Assembly (NCBI RefSeq): GCF_018127925.1
Contig: NZ_CP072347.1
Location: 1,383,074 to 1,447,073 of the forward strand
Reading direction: 5' to 3'
Length of the DNA: 64,000 nt
Source of the DNA: Prevotella melaninogenica
GTDB lineage: Bacteria > Bacteroidota > Bacteroidia > Bacteroidales > Bacteroidaceae
Shown: one piece after another, positions 6,284-42,837 of the stretch
Layout of the letters: every line of letters begins with the position of its first letter
Numbering within the stretch: position 1 is the stretch's first letter
Notes under the pieces: model-generated
What the model saw: the letters and a program-made list of their open reading frames with translations, nothing else
Databases searched by the model: none
What the model was told of the DNA's origin: nothing
Program-made: the position numbers and the translations under genes

Positions 6284-6685
6284 ATGAAGAAAAATATTGA
6301 AACTAACGCAGCTTTTATCGAGAACATTAACGAAGTATTTTATGACAATATCTGTATGGACACACAGACGCGTTTTCATACCGACGGCCATATCCAGTTC
6401 AAGCCCTGCCCATGGGAGAGGTCTGTTGTCGTGGCAGGTAGCGAGAAGAAATTCCAAGCATCGGTCAGTGTGCGCGAAGATGGTGAGACGCTTATCCGTC
6501 CTTATCGCAAGGGTACGGGTAGCCGCTATGAGAAACTCTTTGAGATTCCTTACGCTTGTGTTAAACAGACTTCTCACGACCTTATCGTCAATATCCGATT
6601 GCCCCGAAAACTCGGCATCCGCCGCATCGTCACGATGATGAGCGAGATATTTGTAGCCGTAACAGCGTTCGTGGGAGGGATGTAA
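6284..6685 (+). CDS. Hypothetical protein
   Basis: 133 residues from the ATG at 6284, which is preceded by a purine-rich GAAGAAGAA ribosome-binding stretch. A GTG at 6236 would add 16 residues but overlaps a palindrome and has no better binding site. I do not recognise the family. The middle (CPWERSVVVAGSEKKFQASVSV, RPYRKGTGSRYEKLFEIPYACVKQT) alternates like a beta-rich domain. The last about 25 residues are hydrophobic (IVTMMSEIFVAVTAFVGGM), possibly a membrane anchor or buried helix. It lies between the OB-fold gene and the primase/helicase-like gene, all on the plus strand. Confidence 0.6.
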   Translation: MKKNIETNAAFIENINEVFYDNICMDTQTRFHTDGHIQFKPCPWERSVVVAGSEKKFQASVSVREDGETLIRPYRKGTGSRYEKLFEIPYACVKQTSHDLIVNIRLPRKLGIRRIVTMMSEIFVAVTAFVGGM

Positions 6686-6689
6686 AAGA

Positions 6690-6870
6690 AGCCCCGACTT
6701 GCCCCTCCCCCTTGCCCCTCCCCCAAAGGGAGGGGAGTAAGCACCGAGATACCCCTGTGTTTTGTTTACTCTTTGTTTTATTACCGCTAAGTATTATCTG
6801 AGATATAGGGATAACACGGTATTCACTCCCCTCCCTTTGGGGGAGGGGCAAGGGGGAGGGGCTACTTCTT
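6690..6870. repeat. Inverted pair of G/C-rich family-B repeats
   Basis: Two copies of the family-B element (AGCCCCTCCCCCTTGCCCC type) face each other at about 6693-6760 and 6803-6866, each arm about 55 bp, separated by an A/T-rich centre. They lie right after the stop at 6685 and before the gene at 6899, so the transcript could fold into a long hairpin. Confidence 0.75.
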
Positions 6871-6898
6871 TTCTTTACTCTTATTAATTCTTAAAACT

Positions 6899-9256
6899 AT
6901 GACACAAAACATTGCACTCAACACTTCACGCAACGGCAATAAAGGAATCGTCAGAACGATGACTATCGAAGACTACGATAGACTCATTAGAGAGCCGTGG
7001 CTGAAGAAACTGATAAACGAAATTCGTACACTACCAGCTGGCGACAAACGGGCTGACGCACTGAAGGCACAACTACCGTGGCGATGCCCACATTACACCG
7101 CCTTCGGGGATAATCACCGTAGGCAAGCAAACCTACTGCCTGAAGCGTTCACCTTTCAGACAACTTTCGATGTAGACGACGTATCGGTCGTAGAGAAAGC
7201 TATCACTGCGGCACGCGAACTTGACACGAAGCCTGGACGTTGGCGCAGTAAGTTATTGCATATGGAATATTCAGCCCGCAAGAAACTGCATATTGACTTC
7301 CGTCTTCCACTCGGTATGACCGTAGAGGAGGCGCAGCAGGCTTATGGCGAGGCTATCGGTGTGCCCTATGACAAATCCTGCATCACTCCCGAACGCTTTA
7401 TTTATGTCACATCCATTGACGACGAAATCTATCGCTCGAAAGAATGGTATCAACCCCTCAATGATGACGATCGTGAGATGTATGTAGCTGCTTTCCGAGG
7501 ACGTGGACTTACGGACGATGGGCGCACGCTTGCCTATCAAGTGCCAACGGCAGAAGCTACACACACACCGAAAGAGGAAACCACGCACACGCAGCCTACG
7601 ACCTGCACAGAAAAGCAGTTGCGCATCTTCGACCTCAGTCGTGAAGCTGCAGGCTTAAAGGATGTAGATATCAACCGCATAGGCTCACGCCACACCTCTC
7701 TGCAGGCTATCCTCTCCATTGCAGCCAGCCGACTGATGAGCGAGGAAGAACTCTTGGCAGTGGTGCAGCAGCGCATGCCTGAATATGCTAAGGAGCAGGA
7801 TTGCCGTCAGCTTATCCACGATTTTTATGCGAAATATCACGACGACTCAAAGATTTTCAACGCAACCGTTCAACGTATCAATGCCCTTGCTGAACAGGAG
7901 GCTGGCGAAGATGTCTCTAATCTTAAAACAGCCGTAACGAGTGGCTTAATGGGCAACCAGACCTTCTCCATACCCACACCGAAGGCAAAGCCCCAATATG
8001 TTGCAGACATCGAAAACGCCATCTTACGTCTGCCTGCACTAAAAGCAACCTTAGCAGGCGTTCCAGAAGGGATGAAGATACCTGTTCTCTGTGCTGTCAT
8101 GCCTCTGGCAGCCGCTTACGCCGACAGCGTAACGGTGGAATACTGCGACGGAAAGCGAATGCAGCTGGGACTTATGTCGGTCATCGTCGGTCCGCAAGCA
8201 TCGGGCAAAAGTGCGTGTAAGGAAGCCCTCGACACATGGCTCGAAAGGATGAACGAGGACGACGAAAAGGCGCGAAAGCAGGAAGACGAATGGAAGGAGA
8301 AACGCCGTAACCGAAAGGCTAACGAAAAGGCTCCCGAAGACCCAAGAGTGATGATACGCAACGTGCCAGTTACCATCTCGTGTTCTACCCTACTGAAACG
8401 TATGAAATATGCACAGGGGCACACGCTCTTCTCCTTTGGTGAGGAACTCGACACGCTACGAAAGACAAACGGTGCAGGCTCGTGGTCGCAGAAGTATGAC
8501 ATCTATCGCCTCGCCTTCGATAACGGACGGTGGGGACAAGATTATAACTCTGATCAGGCAGAGAGCGGAGTTGTTGACGTTGCCTATAATTGGACCATAC
8601 TCGGCACATACGGTGCGCTGGCAAAATGCTTTCAAGGCGACAACGTGGAGAACGGACTCTCCTCACGCATCATCTTCTCCGAAATGCCCGACAACGCTTT
8701 TGCTCCTATGCCCCGCTTCCGAGGAATGATTGACAGGGATTCTGCCGCCATTCGTGAAGCCGTAGAAAAGCTGTGTGCTGCCAACGGATTCCTTGACACC
8801 CCCCGATTGCGCAAACGAATTGCTAATTGGGTGGAAGAGAAACGTCTTGAGGCATCACGCACCTGGGACATTGTCAAAGACACCTATCGCAAACGTGCTG
8901 CCGTCATAGGCTTTCGCTGTGGCGTTGTCTATAGGCTGATCGTCGAGAAAGAGTCGAAAGCCTGCCTTGACTTTGCCGAGGCTATGGCTGAATATGTCTT
9001 ACAAGCACAAATGCAAATCTTCGGAAAGCCACTGCTTACACAGATGGGTAAGACAATGGAGGGAAACGAGAGAAGAAGCAGAAACAAGAATATTCTTGAA
9101 GAATTACCACAGACATTCACGCTCGACGACCTTAACCGACTGAAACCTGAGAATACGAACATTGGGACGCTGCGCGTTATGATTCATCGATGGAAGGCGG
9201 ACGGATGGATTGAAAAGGTAAAGGAAGGCGAATGGAAGAAGACTGTGACTGTATAA
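6899..9256 (+). CDS. BT4734/BF3469-type VirE-N + DUF3987 protein
   Basis: 785 residues in two parts. Residues about 1-210 fit the 'VirE N-terminal'/BT4734-like domain, with LPWRCPHYTAFGDN and conserved Asp/His/Arg residues (FDVDD, HIDFRLP). Residues about 360-720 fit DUF3987, with a Walker A loop VGPQASGKSAC at about 430-440 and an acidic, Lys-rich linker after it. This architecture resembles primase plus helicase-like ATPase modules of mobile elements and is common in Bacteroidota beside HU-like and smalltalk genes. It probably acts on DNA in the cytosol; the substrate is unknown. It lies between the paired family-B repeats and the DUF5675 gene. Confidence 0.85.
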   Translation: MTQNIALNTSRNGNKGIVRTMTIEDYDRLIREPWLKKLINEIRTLPAGDKRADALKAQLPWRCPHYTAFGDNHRRQANLLPEAFTFQTTFDVDDVSVVEKAITAARELDTKPGRWRSKLLHMEYSARKKLHIDFRLPLGMTVEEAQQAYGEAIGVPYDKSCITPERFIYVTSIDDEIYRSKEWYQPLNDDDREMYVAAFRGRGLTDDGRTLAYQVPTAEATHTPKEETTHTQPTTCTEKQLRIFDLSREAAGLKDVDINRIGSRHTSLQAILSIAASRLMSEEELLAVVQQRMPEYAKEQDCRQLIHDFYAKYHDDSKIFNATVQRINALAEQEAGEDVSNLKTAVTSGLMGNQTFSIPTPKAKPQYVADIENAILRLPALKATLAGVPEGMKIPVLCAVMPLAAAYADSVTVEYCDGKRMQLGLMSVIVGPQASGKSACKEALDTWLERMNEDDEKARKQEDEWKEKRRNRKANEKAPEDPRVMIRNVPVTISCSTLLKRMKYAQGHTLFSFGEELDTLRKTNGAGSWSQKYDIYRLAFDNGRWGQDYNSDQAESGVVDVAYNWTILGTYGALAKCFQGDNVENGLSSRIIFSEMPDNAFAPMPRFRGMIDRDSAAIREAVEKLCAANGFLDTPRLRKRIANWVEEKRLEASRTWDIVKDTYRKRAAVIGFRCGVVYRLIVEKESKACLDFAEAMAEYVLQAQMQIFGKPLLTQMGKTMEGNERRSRNKNILEELPQTFTLDDLNRLKPENTNIGTLRVMIHRWKADGWIEKVKEGEWKKTVTV

Positions 9257-9323
9257 CCCCGAAGAAATTACATTATTACAATTACAAATTACATTAAGGT
9301 CTAACCACATAATCGCTACTGCA

Positions 9324-9854
9324 ATGGAAATAATCATCAGACGTACCGCCTTTAAAGAAGGCTACACAATAGGAAACCTCTATATTCTGCCCGAACAGGC
9401 TGGAATTGAAAAGAAAAGTATGCCTACACCAGCTAACAATAAAGAAATAGATGTGCCTAAACAAATAGTTAATGAAGAAAAGGCTATGCCCGAATGGTTC
9501 TGCAATACGATGGAGCCAACAGCGAGAAAGCTGACTTCTCAAATGCCGCTGACACTCATCCGCAGGCATAAAATAATTGGAAAGACAGCTATCCCCACTG
9601 GGCGTTATCGCATCCTCATCACACGCAGCCGACGGTTCGGACGATGGCTGCCGCTGCTGCTGAACGTGAAGGGTTTTGAGGGGATAAGGATTCATGCGGG
9701 GAATAAGCCAGAAGACACACGGGGATGTATCCTCCTCGGTTTCAACCGACGCAAAGGATATGTGCTCGACTCTACCCGCTGCGTGCTCACACTCGTTAAG
9801 ATGATGACGGAGGCAATAGCGAAAGGAGAAAAGGTGTTTGTGGAAGTGAGGTAA
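9324..9854 (+). CDS. DUF5675 family protein
   Basis: 176 residues. The C-terminal about 100 residues (KTAIPTGRYRILITRSRRFGRWLPLLLNV, GIRIHAGNKPEDTRGCILLGFNR) match the DUF5675 pattern, in which an IHxGN...DTxGCI core carries His and Cys residues like those of L,D-transpeptidase-like or phage lysis-associated domains. The N-terminal about 75 residues look like an insertion with low complexity. In related loci this position is held by an N-acetylmuramoyl-L-alanine amidase, so a cell-wall role is plausible. There is no signal peptide. The stop codon is followed immediately by a family-A repeat. Confidence 0.75.
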   Translation: MEIIIRRTAFKEGYTIGNLYILPEQAGIEKKSMPTPANNKEIDVPKQIVNEEKAMPEWFCNTMEPTARKLTSQMPLTLIRRHKIIGKTAIPTGRYRILITRSRRFGRWLPLLLNVKGFEGIRIHAGNKPEDTRGCILLGFNRRKGYVLDSTRCVLTLVKMMTEAIAKGEKVFVEVR

Positions 9855-38637: not shown

Positions 38638-39258
38638 CTACCGCACAATATAATTAAACTTATCAAAGTTTGTAAAGCCCATCTCTTCCAACTGTTGTTG
38701 GCTTCGCTGGCGGTCTTCATCTGTGTTATATTCAGGTATCAAGGGTAGACGGATGATTACCTTATCAGCATATCCGTTCGCTGCTAACCATTGAAGATTA
38801 CTAACGACCTGCTTATTCTCTTTACGTCCATACGCTTTGTAGATATCAGGGTTCATGTCCTTTATATCTACATACCACATCTGCACCAACGAGGCAATAG
38901 CTTTGACATTCTCAAGCGGTACGTTGAGCGATGTCTCTATTGTCAACTTCCATTCGGGATTCATGATCTCGGCAAAGGCCTTGATGAAGTCTGAACGTAA
39001 AAGGGGTTCACCACCGCCAAAACAGATACCGCCACCCGTTGCCACAAAGTAAAGATCGTCTATCTCCACCTCACTATACAACTCACCGGGTGTCAGCCTG
39101 CACCATACACCATCAGCCTGCAAGCACTGAGCGTTTAAGCAGTACTCGCAATGCAGCGGACAACCATGAAAGCCTACCAATGTTGTTACGCCTTCGCCAT
39201 CCGTGGTGAGCCTGTGCCGATTAATGGCAATAAACGGTGCTGTTATTTCTGATTGCAT
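38638..39258 (-). CDS. Radical SAM activase-like 4Fe-4S protein
   Basis: 206 residues. The cluster motif CPLHCEYC (CxxxCxxC, about residues 33-40) follows FHG, and a Gly-rich SAM site GGGICFGGGEPLLR lies at about 75-90. This is the layout of pyruvate formate-lyase-activating-type enzymes, which generate a radical from S-adenosylmethionine. No glycyl-radical enzyme is nearby. Its start overlaps the stop of the last tandem paralogue by 16 bp (39243-39258), so translation is coupled and it forms one operon with five Cys-cluster proteins. A role in modifying or servicing them is possible but unproven. Confidence 0.85.
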   Translation of the reverse strand: MQSEITAPFIAINRHRLTTDGEGVTTLVGFHGCPLHCEYCLNAQCLQADGVWCRLTPGELYSEVEIDDLYFVATGGGICFGGGEPLLRSDFIKAFAEIMNPEWKLTIETSLNVPLENVKAIASLVQMWYVDIKDMNPDIYKAYGRKENKQVVSNLQWLAANGYADKVIIRLPLIPEYNTDEDRQRSQQQLEEMGFTNFDKFNYIVR

Positions 39259-39944
39259 TTCTCTTTATGTGATTGAGGAACAGTACTGTCGGCTAATTCT
39301 TTCTCTAAATACTCCCAGTCTATCTCTCCTACTTTGTCAAGAGAAGGATCTAAACGGACCACCATATCATCAGGATTACGAATAGACTTCACTGCTATCA
39401 CCTTATCCTCAAACCCATAAGATGAAAAAACGAGGGTGTCATTACGATTAACCTGCAATACAAATCTTCCATCTTCGCCCAAAGACAGCCTCTTCTTACC
39501 TCCTAATAACATAACATTAACTTCCGAAGCAGCCTTACCAGTAGAAGAGTCGAGCACTCGTCCAATAATAACAATAGCATTCTTCAAATCTGCAGTGAGT
39601 GCTTTTGGTATCACTTCTTGCTTGCCCATAACTGGCGTATCAGTAGAATCCTGAGCTTTATTCTCAACGTTGCAAACTTTGGGAGTGTTCTGACATGATG
39701 TAAGCGGAACCGTAGCAACACAAAGACCAGCAGCCAAACCAGCCACTTTCATGCCCCATCCTTTGCGTTTCCGTTCTCTTAACTGCGTCTCTAAATAGCG
39801 TATCTCCGCTTCACAAGCAGGGCAAGTACCTGCACAATCCCCTTCGTAATGACACTCCTTAGGCTGATAACTGATACCATTGGCATCTGCTATCTGCTGT
39901 CGAATATCCTTTAGTAGCTTACAAGTACTCTTTCCTTTCGTCAT
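39243..39944 (-). CDS. Tandem Cys-cluster/SusC-extension-like protein, copy 5
   Basis: 233 residues. Opens MTKGKSTCKLLKDIRQQIAD, then a Cys cluster C-x5-C-x3-C-x2-C (ECHYEGDCAGTCPACE, about 30-45), a hydrophobic segment (about 68-84) ending PLTSC, which looks like a lipobox, and a carboxypeptidase-like beta domain (about 125-195, IIGRVLDSSTGKAASEVNVM). The end, QSHKEKCNQK, resembles the Lys/Cys tails of the other copies. It is the most divergent copy and lacks a clear TonB-box-like stretch. Last paralogue before the radical SAM gene, 11 bp after copy 4. Function unknown. Confidence 0.8.
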   Translation of the reverse strand: MTKGKSTCKLLKDIRQQIADANGISYQPKECHYEGDCAGTCPACEAEIRYLETQLRERKRKGWGMKVAGLAAGLCVATVPLTSCQNTPKVCNVENKAQDSTDTPVMGKQEVIPKALTADLKNAIVIIGRVLDSSTGKAASEVNVMLLGGKKRLSLGEDGRFVLQVNRNDTLVFSSYGFEDKVIAVKSIRNPDDMVVRLDPSLDKVGEIDWEYLEKELADSTVPQSHKEKCNQK

Positions 39945-39955
39945 AATACTAATCC

Positions 39956-40663
39956 TTACTTACACTTCTTTTTATTCTTCTCCTTATGCGTCCTCGGCTT
40001 ATAAGTCCTATGACCATACACATCATCGTAGTTTGGTAAAACAGATCCAATTCCTCCTACTATCACCGACACATCATAGGCTTCCAGTACAATAACATTA
40101 TCATCTGAACGCAAAAGAGAACTTACACTAACCGTTTTCTGCTTGTAACCAATGAATGAAATAACCAACGAAGTATCTGGTGGTAACTTCAAAGCAAACA
40201 AACCATCTATATTTGTTGCCACACCCTTGTTTGTTCCCTCTATTAAGATAAAAGCTCCTATCAATGGTTCTTTATCATCACTACCAATGACCATTCCACG
40301 TACAACCACAGGTGATGCACAACTTTCAGAAAGGTCTACTACCTTTACAGAATCTTTCTTGGCTGTACGCACAGGAAGATTAGAAGTACTATCGGGCTTA
40401 ACATTTTGCGCAGCAGCAGTCATTGGCATTACCGTAGCACAGATACCTGCAGCAATTCCAGCCACCTTCATACCGAAGCCATTACCCTTACGTGCCTTTA
40501 ACTCACGTTCAAGATAACGTATCTCCTCCTCACAAGCAGGGCAAGTACCTACACAATCCCCCTTGTGATGACACTCCTTAGGCTGATAACTGATACCATT
40601 CGCATCCGCTATCTGCTGCCGAATATCCTTTAGTAGCTTACAAGTACTCTTTCCTTTTACCAT
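39956..40663 (-). CDS. Tandem Cys-cluster/SusC-extension-like protein, copy 4
   Basis: 235 residues. The first about 100 residues are nearly identical to copies 2 and 3: Cys cluster CHHKGDCVGTCPACEEE, charged stretch, hydrophobic segment GMKVAGIAAGICATVMPMTA then AAQ as possible signal-peptidase site. A carboxypeptidase-like regulatory domain (VVRGMVIGSDDKEPLIGAFI, about 118-190) follows. Toward the end, SVIVGGIGSVLPNYDDVYGHR leads into THKEKNKKKCK. Eleven bp separate it from each neighbour. The near identity suggests recent duplication or gene conversion. Confidence 0.8.
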   Translation of the reverse strand: MVKGKSTCKLLKDIRQQIADANGISYQPKECHHKGDCVGTCPACEEEIRYLERELKARKGNGFGMKVAGIAAGICATVMPMTAAAQNVKPDSTSNLPVRTAKKDSVKVVDLSESCASPVVVRGMVIGSDDKEPLIGAFILIEGTNKGVATNIDGLFALKLPPDTSLVISFIGYKQKTVSVSSLLRSDDNVIVLEAYDVSVIVGGIGSVLPNYDDVYGHRTYKPRTHKEKNKKKCK

Positions 40664-40674
40664 AATGCTAATCC

Positions 40675-41388
40675 TTACTTACACTTCTTTTTATTCTTCT
40701 CCTTATGCGATTTCGGTTTATAAGTCCTATGACCATATACGTCATCTTTACTGGTAGGTAGTGTAGCTATTGTTACAATGCCATCTAACATTGCCTCTCT
40801 ATCTTCCTCAAGCACTATAACATTATTATCAGAATGCAAAAGAGAGCTTACATGAACCTTCTTTGTCTTGTATCCGATATATGAAATAACCAACGAAGTG
40901 TCTGGTGGTAACTTCAAAGCAAACTGTCCATCCACGTTTGTTGCAACGCCCTTGTTTGTTCCGTCTATAACAACAGAAGCACCTATCACAGGTTCTTTAT
41001 CTTCTGCGTCTATGACCATTCCACGTACAACCACAGGTGATGCACAACCATCAGAAAGGTCTACTACCTTTACAGGGGCTTTCTTGGTTGTTTGTACAGG
41101 AGGGTTAGCCGTACTATCGGGCTTAACATTTTGCGCAGCAGCAGTCATTGGCATTACCGTAGCACAAATACCTGCATCGATACCAGCTACCTTCATACCG
41201 AAGCCATTACCCTTACGTGCTCTTAATTCACGTTCAAGATAACGTATTTCTTCCTCACAAGCAGGACAAGTACCTGCACAATCCCCCTTGTGGTGACACT
41301 CTTTAGGCTGATAACTGATACCGTTCGCATCCGCTATCTGCTGTCGAATATCCTTTAGTAGCTTACAAGTACTCTTTCCTTTTGCCAT
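40675..41388 (-). CDS. Tandem Cys-cluster/SusC-extension-like protein, copy 3
   Basis: 237 residues. Order: MAKGKSTCKLLKDIRQQIAD; Cys cluster CHHKGDCAGTCPACEEE; hydrophobic helix GMKVAGIDAGICATVMPM with an unusual Asp inside; a Pro/Thr-rich linker; the carboxypeptidase-like domain VVRGMVIDAEDKEPVIGASV to VISYIGYKTKKVHV; then EAMLDGIVTIATLP, which resembles the TonB-box segment that follows the same domain in SusC proteins; and the tail KSHKEKNKKKCK. No plug or barrel follows. It probably spans the inner membrane once, with the Cys cluster in the cytosol; this is inference from charge. Confidence 0.8.
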   Translation of the reverse strand: MAKGKSTCKLLKDIRQQIADANGISYQPKECHHKGDCAGTCPACEEEIRYLERELRARKGNGFGMKVAGIDAGICATVMPMTAAAQNVKPDSTANPPVQTTKKAPVKVVDLSDGCASPVVVRGMVIDAEDKEPVIGASVVIDGTNKGVATNVDGQFALKLPPDTSLVISYIGYKTKKVHVSSLLHSDNNVIVLEEDREAMLDGIVTIATLPTSKDDVYGHRTYKPKSHKEKNKKKCK

Positions 41389-41399
41389 AATACTAATCT

Positions 41400-42134
41400 T
41401 TACTTACACTTCTTTTTATTCTTCTCCTTATGCGACTTAGGCTTATCAGTTCTACGACCACTCACGTTATCTTTATTACCTTTATTTTCATCTTTACAAG
41501 TAGGTAGTGTAGCTATTGTTACAATGCCATCTAACATTGCATCTCTATCTTCCTCAAGCACTATAACATTATTATCAGAATGCAAAAGCGAACTTACATG
41601 AACCTTTTGCTTCTCATATCCTATTAAAGAAATAACCAACGAAGTGTCTGGTGGTAACTTCAAAGCAAACTGTCCATCGATATTTGTTGCAACGCCCTTT
41701 TTTGTTCCGTCTATTACAACAGAAGCACCTATCAATGGTTCTTTATTATCACTGCCTACGACCATTCCACGTACAACCACAGGTGATGCACAACCATCAG
41801 AAAGGTCTACTACTTTTACATCGCCTTTCTTAGCTGTATGTACAGGACGATTAGCCGTACTATCGGGCGTAACAGCTTGCGCAGCAGCGGTCATCGGCAT
41901 TACCGTAGCGCAGATACCTGCTGCAATACCAGCCACCTTCATACCGAAGCCATTACCCTTACGCACCTTTAACTCATGTTCAAGATAACGTATCTCCTCC
42001 TCACAAGCAGGGCAAGTACCTGCACAATCTCCCTTGTGATGACACTCTTTAGGTTGATAGCTGATACCATTCGCATCCGCTATCTGCTGCCGAATATCCT
42101 TCAATAGCTTACAAGTACTCTTCCCTTTTGCCAT
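41400..42134 (-). CDS. Tandem Cys-cluster/SusC-extension-like protein, copy 2
   Basis: 244 residues from the ATG at 42134. A longer in-frame reading from 42221 would overlap copy 1 and lacks family character, so it is rejected. Layout equals copy 3: Cys cluster (about 31-44), membrane segment GMKVAGIAAGICATVMPM, carboxypeptidase-like domain VVRGMVVGSDNKEPLIGASV, TonB-box-like AMLDGIVTIATLP, and the tail KSHKEKNKKKCK. It has an extra Asn/Lys-rich piece (CKDENKGNKDNVSGRRTDK) before the tail. Starts 4 bp after copy 1. Confidence 0.8.
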   Translation of the reverse strand: MAKGKSTCKLLKDIRQQIADANGISYQPKECHHKGDCAGTCPACEEEIRYLEHELKVRKGNGFGMKVAGIAAGICATVMPMTAAAQAVTPDSTANRPVHTAKKGDVKVVDLSDGCASPVVVRGMVVGSDNKEPLIGASVVIDGTKKGVATNIDGQFALKLPPDTSLVISLIGYEKQKVHVSSLLHSDNNVIVLEEDRDAMLDGIVTIATLPTCKDENKGNKDNVSGRRTDKPKSHKEKNKKKCK

Positions 42135-42138
42135 AACT

Positions 42139-42837
42139 TTATTTCTTATTACACTTCTTTTCCTTATGCGATTTCGGTCCTTTCTTCGCCTTATGCTTCC
42201 CGAACATTTTATCGCATCCACCCAAGACTACAATTTCATTCATCATCGCTGAGTCCTCAGTGATATAAATATCATTATTCTTTTTATCTAAGAGTTCTTT
42301 AACTGTCACACTCATTTTATAATAACCAATACCTCTCACCTCCAGTGTATCAGTTAGCAGAGCTTTCACAGCATACTCGCCCTCAATATCGGTGACATCT
42401 CCTTTTTTTGTGTCCTTCAACCCAACAACGGCTCCAATAATAGGCTCCTTTGTCTTTGTATCGAACACCTTCCCACGTAATAGAACAGCATCAGGCTGAC
42501 CATTGGTCAGGTCTACCGCTCTTATAGAATCATTCTTTATCGTCTTAGCCTTAAAGTCAGGACTAATCTTACTCTCTGTTTGTACCATAGCAGCCATTGG
42601 CAATACTGTCACACAGACGCCTGCTGCAATACCAGCCACCTTCATACCTAAACCGCTATGCTGTTTATTCTTTAATTGTTCTTCAAGGTAACGGATTTCT
42701 TTCTCACAGCCAGGACACGTACCTGTACATTCACCCTTATGATGACACTCTTCAGGATGATAGCTTATTCCATTCTCATTTGCTATTTTCTGACGGACAT
42801 CCTTCAATACCTTGCAAATGGCTCTCCCCTTTTCCAT
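42139..42837 (-). CDS. Tandem Cys-cluster/SusC-extension-like protein, copy 1
   Basis: 232 residues; first gene of the operon. Cys residues at 8, 31, 37, 41 and 44 (ECHHKGECTGTCPGCEKE). Hydrophobic segment about 65-83 (GMKVAGIAAGVCVTVLPMAA). Carboxypeptidase-like domain about 117-185 (LLRGKVFDTKTKEPIIGAVV, LEVRGIGYYKMSV). Then DSAMMNEIVVLGG, a good likeness to a SusC TonB box (E-V-V-V-T-G), and the tail SHKEKKCNKK. It is clearly homologous to copies 2-4 but more diverged, so it is likely an older copy. A promoter lies 40 bp upstream. Confidence 0.82.
   Translation of the reverse strand: MEKGRAICKVLKDVRQKIANENGISYHPEECHHKGECTGTCPGCEKEIRYLEEQLKNKQHSGLGMKVAGIAAGVCVTVLPMAAMVQTESKISPDFKAKTIKNDSIRAVDLTNGQPDAVLLRGKVFDTKTKEPIIGAVVGLKDTKKGDVTDIEGEYAVKALLTDTLEVRGIGYYKMSVTVKELLDKKNNDIYITEDSAMMNEIVVLGGCDKMFGKHKAKKGPKSHKEKKCNKK

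Follow-up and report, generated by a model that had tools for sequence, protein, structure and literature searches.

A cysteine-rich N-terminal domain and a radical SAM enzyme form a near-obligate pair in Bacteroidales that looks like a protein-modification system

Within a 64,000-nucleotide stretch of the Prevotella melaninogenica contig NZ_CP072347.1 (assembly GCF_018127925.1, positions 1,383,074 to 1,447,073; hereafter the window) lies a six-gene operon of five tandem paralogues (copies 1-5) and a gene for a radical S-adenosylmethionine enzyme (rSAM). The original prediction, made from the letters of this DNA, recognized the operon correctly, but its emphasis on a carboxypeptidase-like domain and a TonB box was misplaced relative to the evidence. 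What the family members chiefly share is a cysteine-rich N-terminal domain of about 60 residues, which we call ND. We find that ND and rSAM form a near-obligate pair that is almost confined to Bacteroidales; the two may be encoded by adjacent genes, in trans or, in some genomes, as one fused protein. The cargo behind ND is interchangeable and enriched in a glycine motif, LxG[DE][VI]. Together, this looks like rSAM-dependent protein modification with an un-named cysteine-rich partner domain and a candidate glycine motif.

The two components co-occur in both genome samples. Among 247 genomes of the order, ND is found in seven and rSAM in the same seven; among 60 genomes of the genus, 20 have both, two have ND only, 38 have neither and none has rSAM alone, with the window's own genome included in both samples. 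The best rSAM match per genome in the genus has an E value below 1e-99, versus 2e-22 for the next-best other rSAM. One of the two exceptions is an 85%-complete genome (G036) and the other carries an rSAM fragment adjoining ND (G051). We also compared 79 loci which, being the best-scoring of at least 576 in the genome collection, lean towards the query. rSAM is present in 56 of them, within 200 bp in 54 of the 56; the remaining 23 loci span 21 genomes: a complete rSAM is encoded elsewhere in 19 of these, another has a fragment, and the last has none. The association of the enzyme with such paralogues in other genomes, whose absence would have counted against the original prediction, is therefore almost perfect. 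No neighbour other than the pair itself recurs in more than six of the 79 loci (no search was aimed at glycyl radical enzymes by family), and a larger operon was rejected on this ground. Because rSAM is nearly always found with ND, the pair looks like an undescribed system for the chemical marking of proteins, probably at a glycine, ahead of their export.

All 79 loci bear Bacteroidales names except two from assemblies labelled Clostridia (L087 and L099), whose ND/rSAM loci have unusual cargos of up to 634 residues and may reflect either a mislabelled bin or a transfer. Outside the order, 345 genomes of the phylum yielded nothing convincing, the two ND hits (E 8.5e-4) looking like chance. Of the named relatives in the scan, Prevotella histicola comes closest, its ND being 99% identical to the blended query. 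A phage origin was considered and rejected: one viral contig in IMG/VR fits the peptide pattern, none encodes a relative, and no PHROGs family matches the three ND proteins searched.

The ND is strikingly constant. All five copies carry the C-x5-C-x3-C-x2-C cluster already noted in them, plus a fifth invariant cysteine at position 8. Across 171 ND sequences there is no change at G4, C8, L11, A19, C31, C41 or C44, and R15, N22, C37, E45 and E47 each differ in only one or two, the C37 exceptions being two rows in which the cysteine is out of register. In the window, ND is the best-conserved portion of the copies: residues 1-58 are 64-95% identical among the five (93-95% among copies 2-4), compared with 24-80% for the exported parts. 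Searches against Pfam and NCBIfam found no family covering ND (for NCBIfam, among the matches listed, 25 of 35 families). The predicted fold consists of two helices joined by a cysteine loop (mean predicted local distance difference test score, pLDDT, 72) and is without a PDB match, the fold search giving nothing below E 1.8 and a sequence search of solved structures nothing below E 0.13. Identity with a known zinc or iron-sulphur domain was rejected, as zinc-ribbon models stay below cut-off (E 0.018 for relatives, 0.04 for the window) and a DUF5869 hint, likewise below cut-off (E 0.0024), is limited to the form at locus L143.

By sequence, the window rSAM resembles a pyruvate formate-lyase activase (PFL-AE). 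It matches PF04055 at 5e-16, shows the rSAM fold and cluster motif of PFL-AE with CX3CX2C at residues 33-40, and has D20 and N42 as equivalents of the PFL-AE residues Asp16 and Asn38, which hold the target glycine (PMC9326890). Both glycine-holding residues are kept in 79/79 distinct rSAM sequences, a count limited to rSAMs with GGGEP, and the only alignment row without GGGEP (L096) likewise has both. The enzyme scores below the curated cut-offs of TIGR02493 (83.7 of 231.75 bits) and TIGR02494 (118.6 of 174.35 bits), and a Pfam search found no SPASM match in it. We rejected a defence system: the only such sign in rSAM is a weak viperin-like match (E 6.9e-6), beside one HIRAN-domain partner protein (L053) whose HIRAN part matches the PADLOC candidate PDC-M03B.

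Following ND, each copy has a stretch that was originally taken for a membrane-type segment and is better read as a signal sequence, ending in MTAAAQ in copies 2-4 and in the lipobox LTSC in copy 5. By simple pattern matching, 102 of 165 ND proteins of all classes have a lipobox-like cleavage site, 36 an AxAQ-like site and 27 neither, some of these last showing clear variants. The cargo downstream varies widely. Among 110 nonredundant relatives, 53 carry TonB_C and 27 CarbopepD_reg_2, some of them both; OmpA, BACON and HIRAN domains occur in one protein each, and what remains is a mix of short lipoproteins and longer proteins that were not recognised. The TonB link drawn in the original prediction thus holds at the level of cargo, but the carboxypeptidase-like domain does not define the group.

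The cargos have a short motif in common. LxG[DE][VI] was spotted by eye in the cargos of the ND set and then tested: it occurs in 61/110 ND proteins, versus a mean of 3.5 and a maximum of 9 in 200 draws of length-matched controls. Its density is 3.4-4.9 per 1000 residues in three cargo classes (cut by rough patterns, so that 'short/other' retained some TonB_C and CarbopepD proteins), versus 0.21 in 174 secreted neighbour proteins. An unsupervised search of 26 short cargos recovers the same motif with a log-likelihood of 159, versus 86-104 for shuffled sequences (120 starts on the real data, 40 on each of three shuffled sets), and the glycine is the most conserved position of the learned motif.

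Homologous proteins that lack ND provide a more direct comparison. Before TonB_C, the strict motif is found in 25/69 ND-linked rows (derived from 165 proteins, some closely related) and 0/21 ND-free rows, and a loose version in 41/69 versus 0/21; nine of the 30 control loci fetched gave no row, and the 21 rows include the same protein twice (L169, L182). In one example the ND-free sequence is VFDVVEQMPSFPGG, whereas the ND-linked one (L041) is VFGDVAEQMPSFPGG. In CarbopepD proteins, the position of the SusC TonB box holds the strict motif in 14/24 ND-linked proteins versus 0/19 ND-free ones (of 30 loci, seven had no row, four were window copies and 19 served as control), although two of the 19 (L206, L216) have a glycine there outside the motif. 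Where ND-free CarbopepD proteins from the same genome carry a TonB box of the LDEVVV type, LxGEV stands in many of the ND-linked ones.

Rearranged forms of the system separate ND from its usual cargo. In 6/9 genomes of one family, a single fused protein comprises rSAM and ND and has neither signal nor cargo; at L143 a free 88-residue ND protein is encoded by a gene overlapping that of rSAM by one base; and at L053 ND is joined to HIRAN without a membrane segment, beside an rSAM with an extra N-terminal domain. A midpoint-rooted tree of the enzyme places these soluble forms together (8 tips, support 0.90). Fused, free and HIRAN-joined, they argue that ND is a partner domain of the enzyme and not just part of a membrane anchor. 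The gene next to the rSAM-ND fusion codes for a peptide of 61-92 residues without ND or evident signal sequence, and this peptide contains LxG[DE][IL] in 6/6 cases, with leucine and glycine invariant. A profile search did not find it in the family's three genomes without rSAM; as the profile was built from the six fusion peptides, all from one genus, the absences are the informative part. It is mainly because the motif sits in a separate neighbouring peptide when ND moves onto the enzyme that we read the motif as a substrate site. As observations on these loci, the L053 enzyme (6527-9383) has its rSAM part C-terminal to a domain of about 350 residues weakly like ADP-ribosylglycohydrolase (E 0.0013, below cut-off), and at L141 and L142 the fusion locus adjoins a 664-residue gene with a TonB-box-like start and, on its other flank, genes that we take to be relatives of dnaA, mlaD and an amidase.

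We infer ND delivery, the modification site and the chemistry as follows. ND, which precedes the signal sequence and would still be in the cytoplasm, would bind rSAM, perhaps by way of an Fe-S or Zn centre on its cysteines, and would present the rest of the nascent or unexported polypeptide to the enzyme. The activase-like rSAM would then take a hydrogen at or beside the motif glycine and leave a modification. Export would come next, signal peptidase cutting off ND together with the signal sequence, and the modified protein or lipoprotein would work in the periplasm, often near TonB. In fused systems ND would be part of the enzyme and a separate small peptide would supply the motif; in the window, one rSAM would serve five substrates. 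The general form of this proposal, a two-part system in which ND delivers the substrate and rSAM acts at or near a candidate glycine, seems to us evenly poised between right and wrong. Its fuller form would make the pair an undescribed Bacteroidales class in which an activase-type enzyme alters the LxG[DE][VI] glycine of many unrelated exported proteins, brought to it by an interchangeable cysteine-rich leader that is lost on export, periplasmic lipoproteins and TonB-like proteins thereby being marked while still in the cytoplasm; we hold this tentatively, at a little under an even chance.

Several observations weigh against this proposal. None of the five window copies matches the strict motif; degenerate forms are the best they offer (Table 1), which makes the window itself a weak example of the motif system. 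Its close relatives include strict-type forms (IVGEI in L036, LSGEV and FVGEV in L068, LQGEI in L077) and loose ones (ILGIV in L063, LLGIV in L066). Across the family, 49/110 relatives are without the strict motif, and looser patterns discriminate less, at 91/110 versus a control mean of 46.7/110. In CarbopepD proteins the loose motif is present in 23/24 ND-linked but also in 7/19 ND-free proteins, in those seven mostly further down in the plug. The matrix learned from short cargos shows an enrichment over control of only 3 to 4 times among the 84 longer ND proteins (3.5 versus 0.9 per 1000 residues at threshold 5). At L143 and L053, ND, rSAM and the adjacent genes contain no strict motif; near L143 a strict match occurs only in an opposite-strand gene some 1.2 kb distant. 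The motif counts are also not independent, since rows within a class are homologous.

Other explanations place the activity elsewhere. ND could itself be the business end, either by completing rSAM with an auxiliary Fe-S or Zn centre or by being the part that is modified, with the glycine motif having an unrelated function. The near-invariance of its residues would suit such a role, as would the enzyme-fused ND and the free ND of L143, which come without exported cargo. Larger activases contain a ferredoxin insert, which the short, 206-residue rSAM lacks in our alignment. We nevertheless consider this explanation unlikely, as it accounts neither for the glycine motif in unrelated cargos nor for the motif in the ND-less peptides beside the fusions, and the ND model, having no PDB match, reveals no known cluster fold. 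If the motif instead marked the site of a true glycyl radical, rSAM would leave a stable radical there, as a redox device or as a self-destruct site where oxygen triggers backbone cleavage. The activase-like enzyme with both glycine-anchoring residues, and the glycine as the most conserved motif position, are what one would expect, but export and the often small size of the substrates speak against it, and Pfam showed no glycyl-radical domain in the 110 proteins, nor was a glycyl radical enzyme among the NCBIfam matches listed (25 of 35 families); to this explanation we give little credence.

The original prediction offered two roles for the paralogues, as decoys or regulators of TonB signalling or as substrates of the enzyme. 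Under the first, the motif would engage periplasmic TonB C-terminal domains and tune TonB-dependent transport while rSAM modifies something else. It is true that in carboxypeptidase-type relatives the site coincides with the SusC TonB box, that TonB_C is frequent among relatives, and that MNEIVV in window copy 1 is still TonB-box-like. Yet the motif departs from LDEVVV by gaining a glycine, and it is missing from ND-free TonB_C proteins. The decoy idea is further weakened because the motif also occurs in acidic short lipoproteins without TonB or carboxypeptidase domains and in the small peptides, lacking any evident signal sequence, beside rSAM-ND fusions. The TonB-box-like stretch appears as one form of the glycine motif in relatives, and mimicry of TonB boxes seems to us quite improbable. 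The substrate role is the better supported of the two, with the paralogues as candidate substrates, so that the original interpretation is partly supported overall.

The six genes of the operon follow one another head to tail, all on the minus strand (Table 1), with gaps between the copies, in transcription order, of 4, 11, 11 and 11 bp and the expected 16 bp overlap between the genes of copy 5 and rSAM. Copy 2 starts with the ATG at 42134; a GTG at 42221 in the open reading frame list falls within copy 1. PF13715 (CarbopepD_reg_2) is found in all five copies, marginally in copy 5 (31.2 bits against a cut-off of 32.2 in one search, 33.4 bits in another), and a Pfam search found no TonB_C domain in them. 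TonB-box-like stretches past the carboxypeptidase-like domain, AMLDGIVTIA in copies 2 and 3 and MMNEIVVLGG in copy 1, stand as first described.

Table 1. Features of the operon, in positions of the window
Feature	Positions	Strand	Detail
Copy 1, first gene: ND, signal sequence, CarbopepD_reg_2	42139..42837	-	232 aa
Copy 2: ND, signal sequence, CarbopepD_reg_2	41400..42134	-	244 aa
Copy 3: ND, signal sequence, CarbopepD_reg_2	40675..41388	-	237 aa
Copy 4: ND, signal sequence, CarbopepD_reg_2	39956..40663	-	235 aa
Copy 5: ND, lipobox signal (LTSC), weak CarbopepD_reg_2	39243..39944	-	233 aa
rSAM, pyruvate formate-lyase-activase-like, last gene	38638..39258	-	206 aa
ND of copy 1	42664..42837	-	residues 1-58
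ND of copy 2	41961..42134	-	
ND of copy 3	41215..41388	-	
ND of copy 4	40490..40663	-	
ND of copy 5	39771..39944	-	
Copy 1, site equivalent to SusC TonB box	42226..42246	-	MMNEIVV (MNEIV, no glycine motif)
Copy 2, degenerate glycine motif	41520..41534	-	LDGIV
Copy 3, degenerate glycine motif	40774..40788	-	LDGIV
Copy 4, degenerate glycine motif	40049..40063	-	IVGGI
Copy 5, partial glycine motif	39321..39335	-	KVGEI

The C-termini of copies 1-5 share a basic tail, (S/T)HKEK..K, plus a cysteine; the tail recurs in P. histicola (L062), with the variants SHKEKCN or SHVEKNK in L035 and L036. Many carboxypeptidase-type ND proteins have a second conserved motif near the C-terminus, past the glycine site, that reads DDVYGH, DDVYNR or similar; its carriers include window copies 3 and 4 (39956-41388) and proteins of L037, L044, L046, L050, L052, L062, L063, L065 and L066. 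The P. histicola array also contains a 64-residue truncated ND copy (L062, 8726-8920), probably a broken paralogue. Arrays of four to seven ND genes without an adjoining rSAM occur at L083, L090, L092 and L093, some including small ND-TonB_C proteins without a membrane segment; rSAM is located elsewhere in three of these four genomes and was not found in the fourth (G655).

No description of the ND-rSAM system appears in the titles and abstract openings of the open-licence papers listed, and the portion of PMC10434189 at hand is unrelated to it. An un-modelled domain and its motif would bring several hundred scattered annotations, in at least 576 places, together as a single testable system. 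Should the motif be the site, a type of enzyme known for making glycyl radicals would modify lipoproteins that common gut and oral bacteria export, and the modular leader might be moved to other proteins.

Among known enzymes, PFL-AE (PDB 3c8f/3cb8) and the TIGR02493/TIGR02494 activases share the fold, cluster motif and glycine-holding residues of the window rSAM, but the latter, at 206 residues, stays under the family cut-offs and has ND as its recurring partner. Anaerobic sulfatase-maturating enzymes are SPASM-bearing rSAMs that act on a Cys or Ser motif. They resemble the ND system as proposed here in that the protein is modified by an rSAM while cytoplasmic and exported afterwards, and differ in that the ND system is activase-like and glycine-centred. 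The rSAM systems for ribosomally synthesized and post-translationally modified peptides (RiPPs) in Bacteroidales, such as those covered by a cluster survey (PMC10352776), likewise pair a single rSAM with a neighbouring substrate candidate, or with several, made up of a conserved leader-like part and a variable rest. The ND family, too, shows strict linkage of enzyme and substrate genes and a conserved candidate recognition part with a recurring core motif, the latter degenerate in the window copies. Unlike those systems, it places a cysteine-rich domain ahead of a signal sequence instead of a GG leader, its enzyme in the window has no SPASM match, and its cargo consists of exported lipoproteins or TonB_C proteins; neither 'lipoprotein' nor 'TonB' occurs in the survey's main text. 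TonB energy transducers share with many ND relatives, though not with the window copies, the TonB C-terminal domain. With SusC/RagA receptors (TIGR04056), the window copies share a carboxypeptidase-like domain with a TonB-box-like site behind it; the matches of copies 1-4 lie within the first 104 of the 981 model positions, and copy 5 matches weakly (E 0.0039). The window proteins end at 232-244 residues without plug or beta barrel, as originally noted, and carry the N-terminal ND; in many ND relatives, the TonB box of these receptors is altered to the glycine motif.

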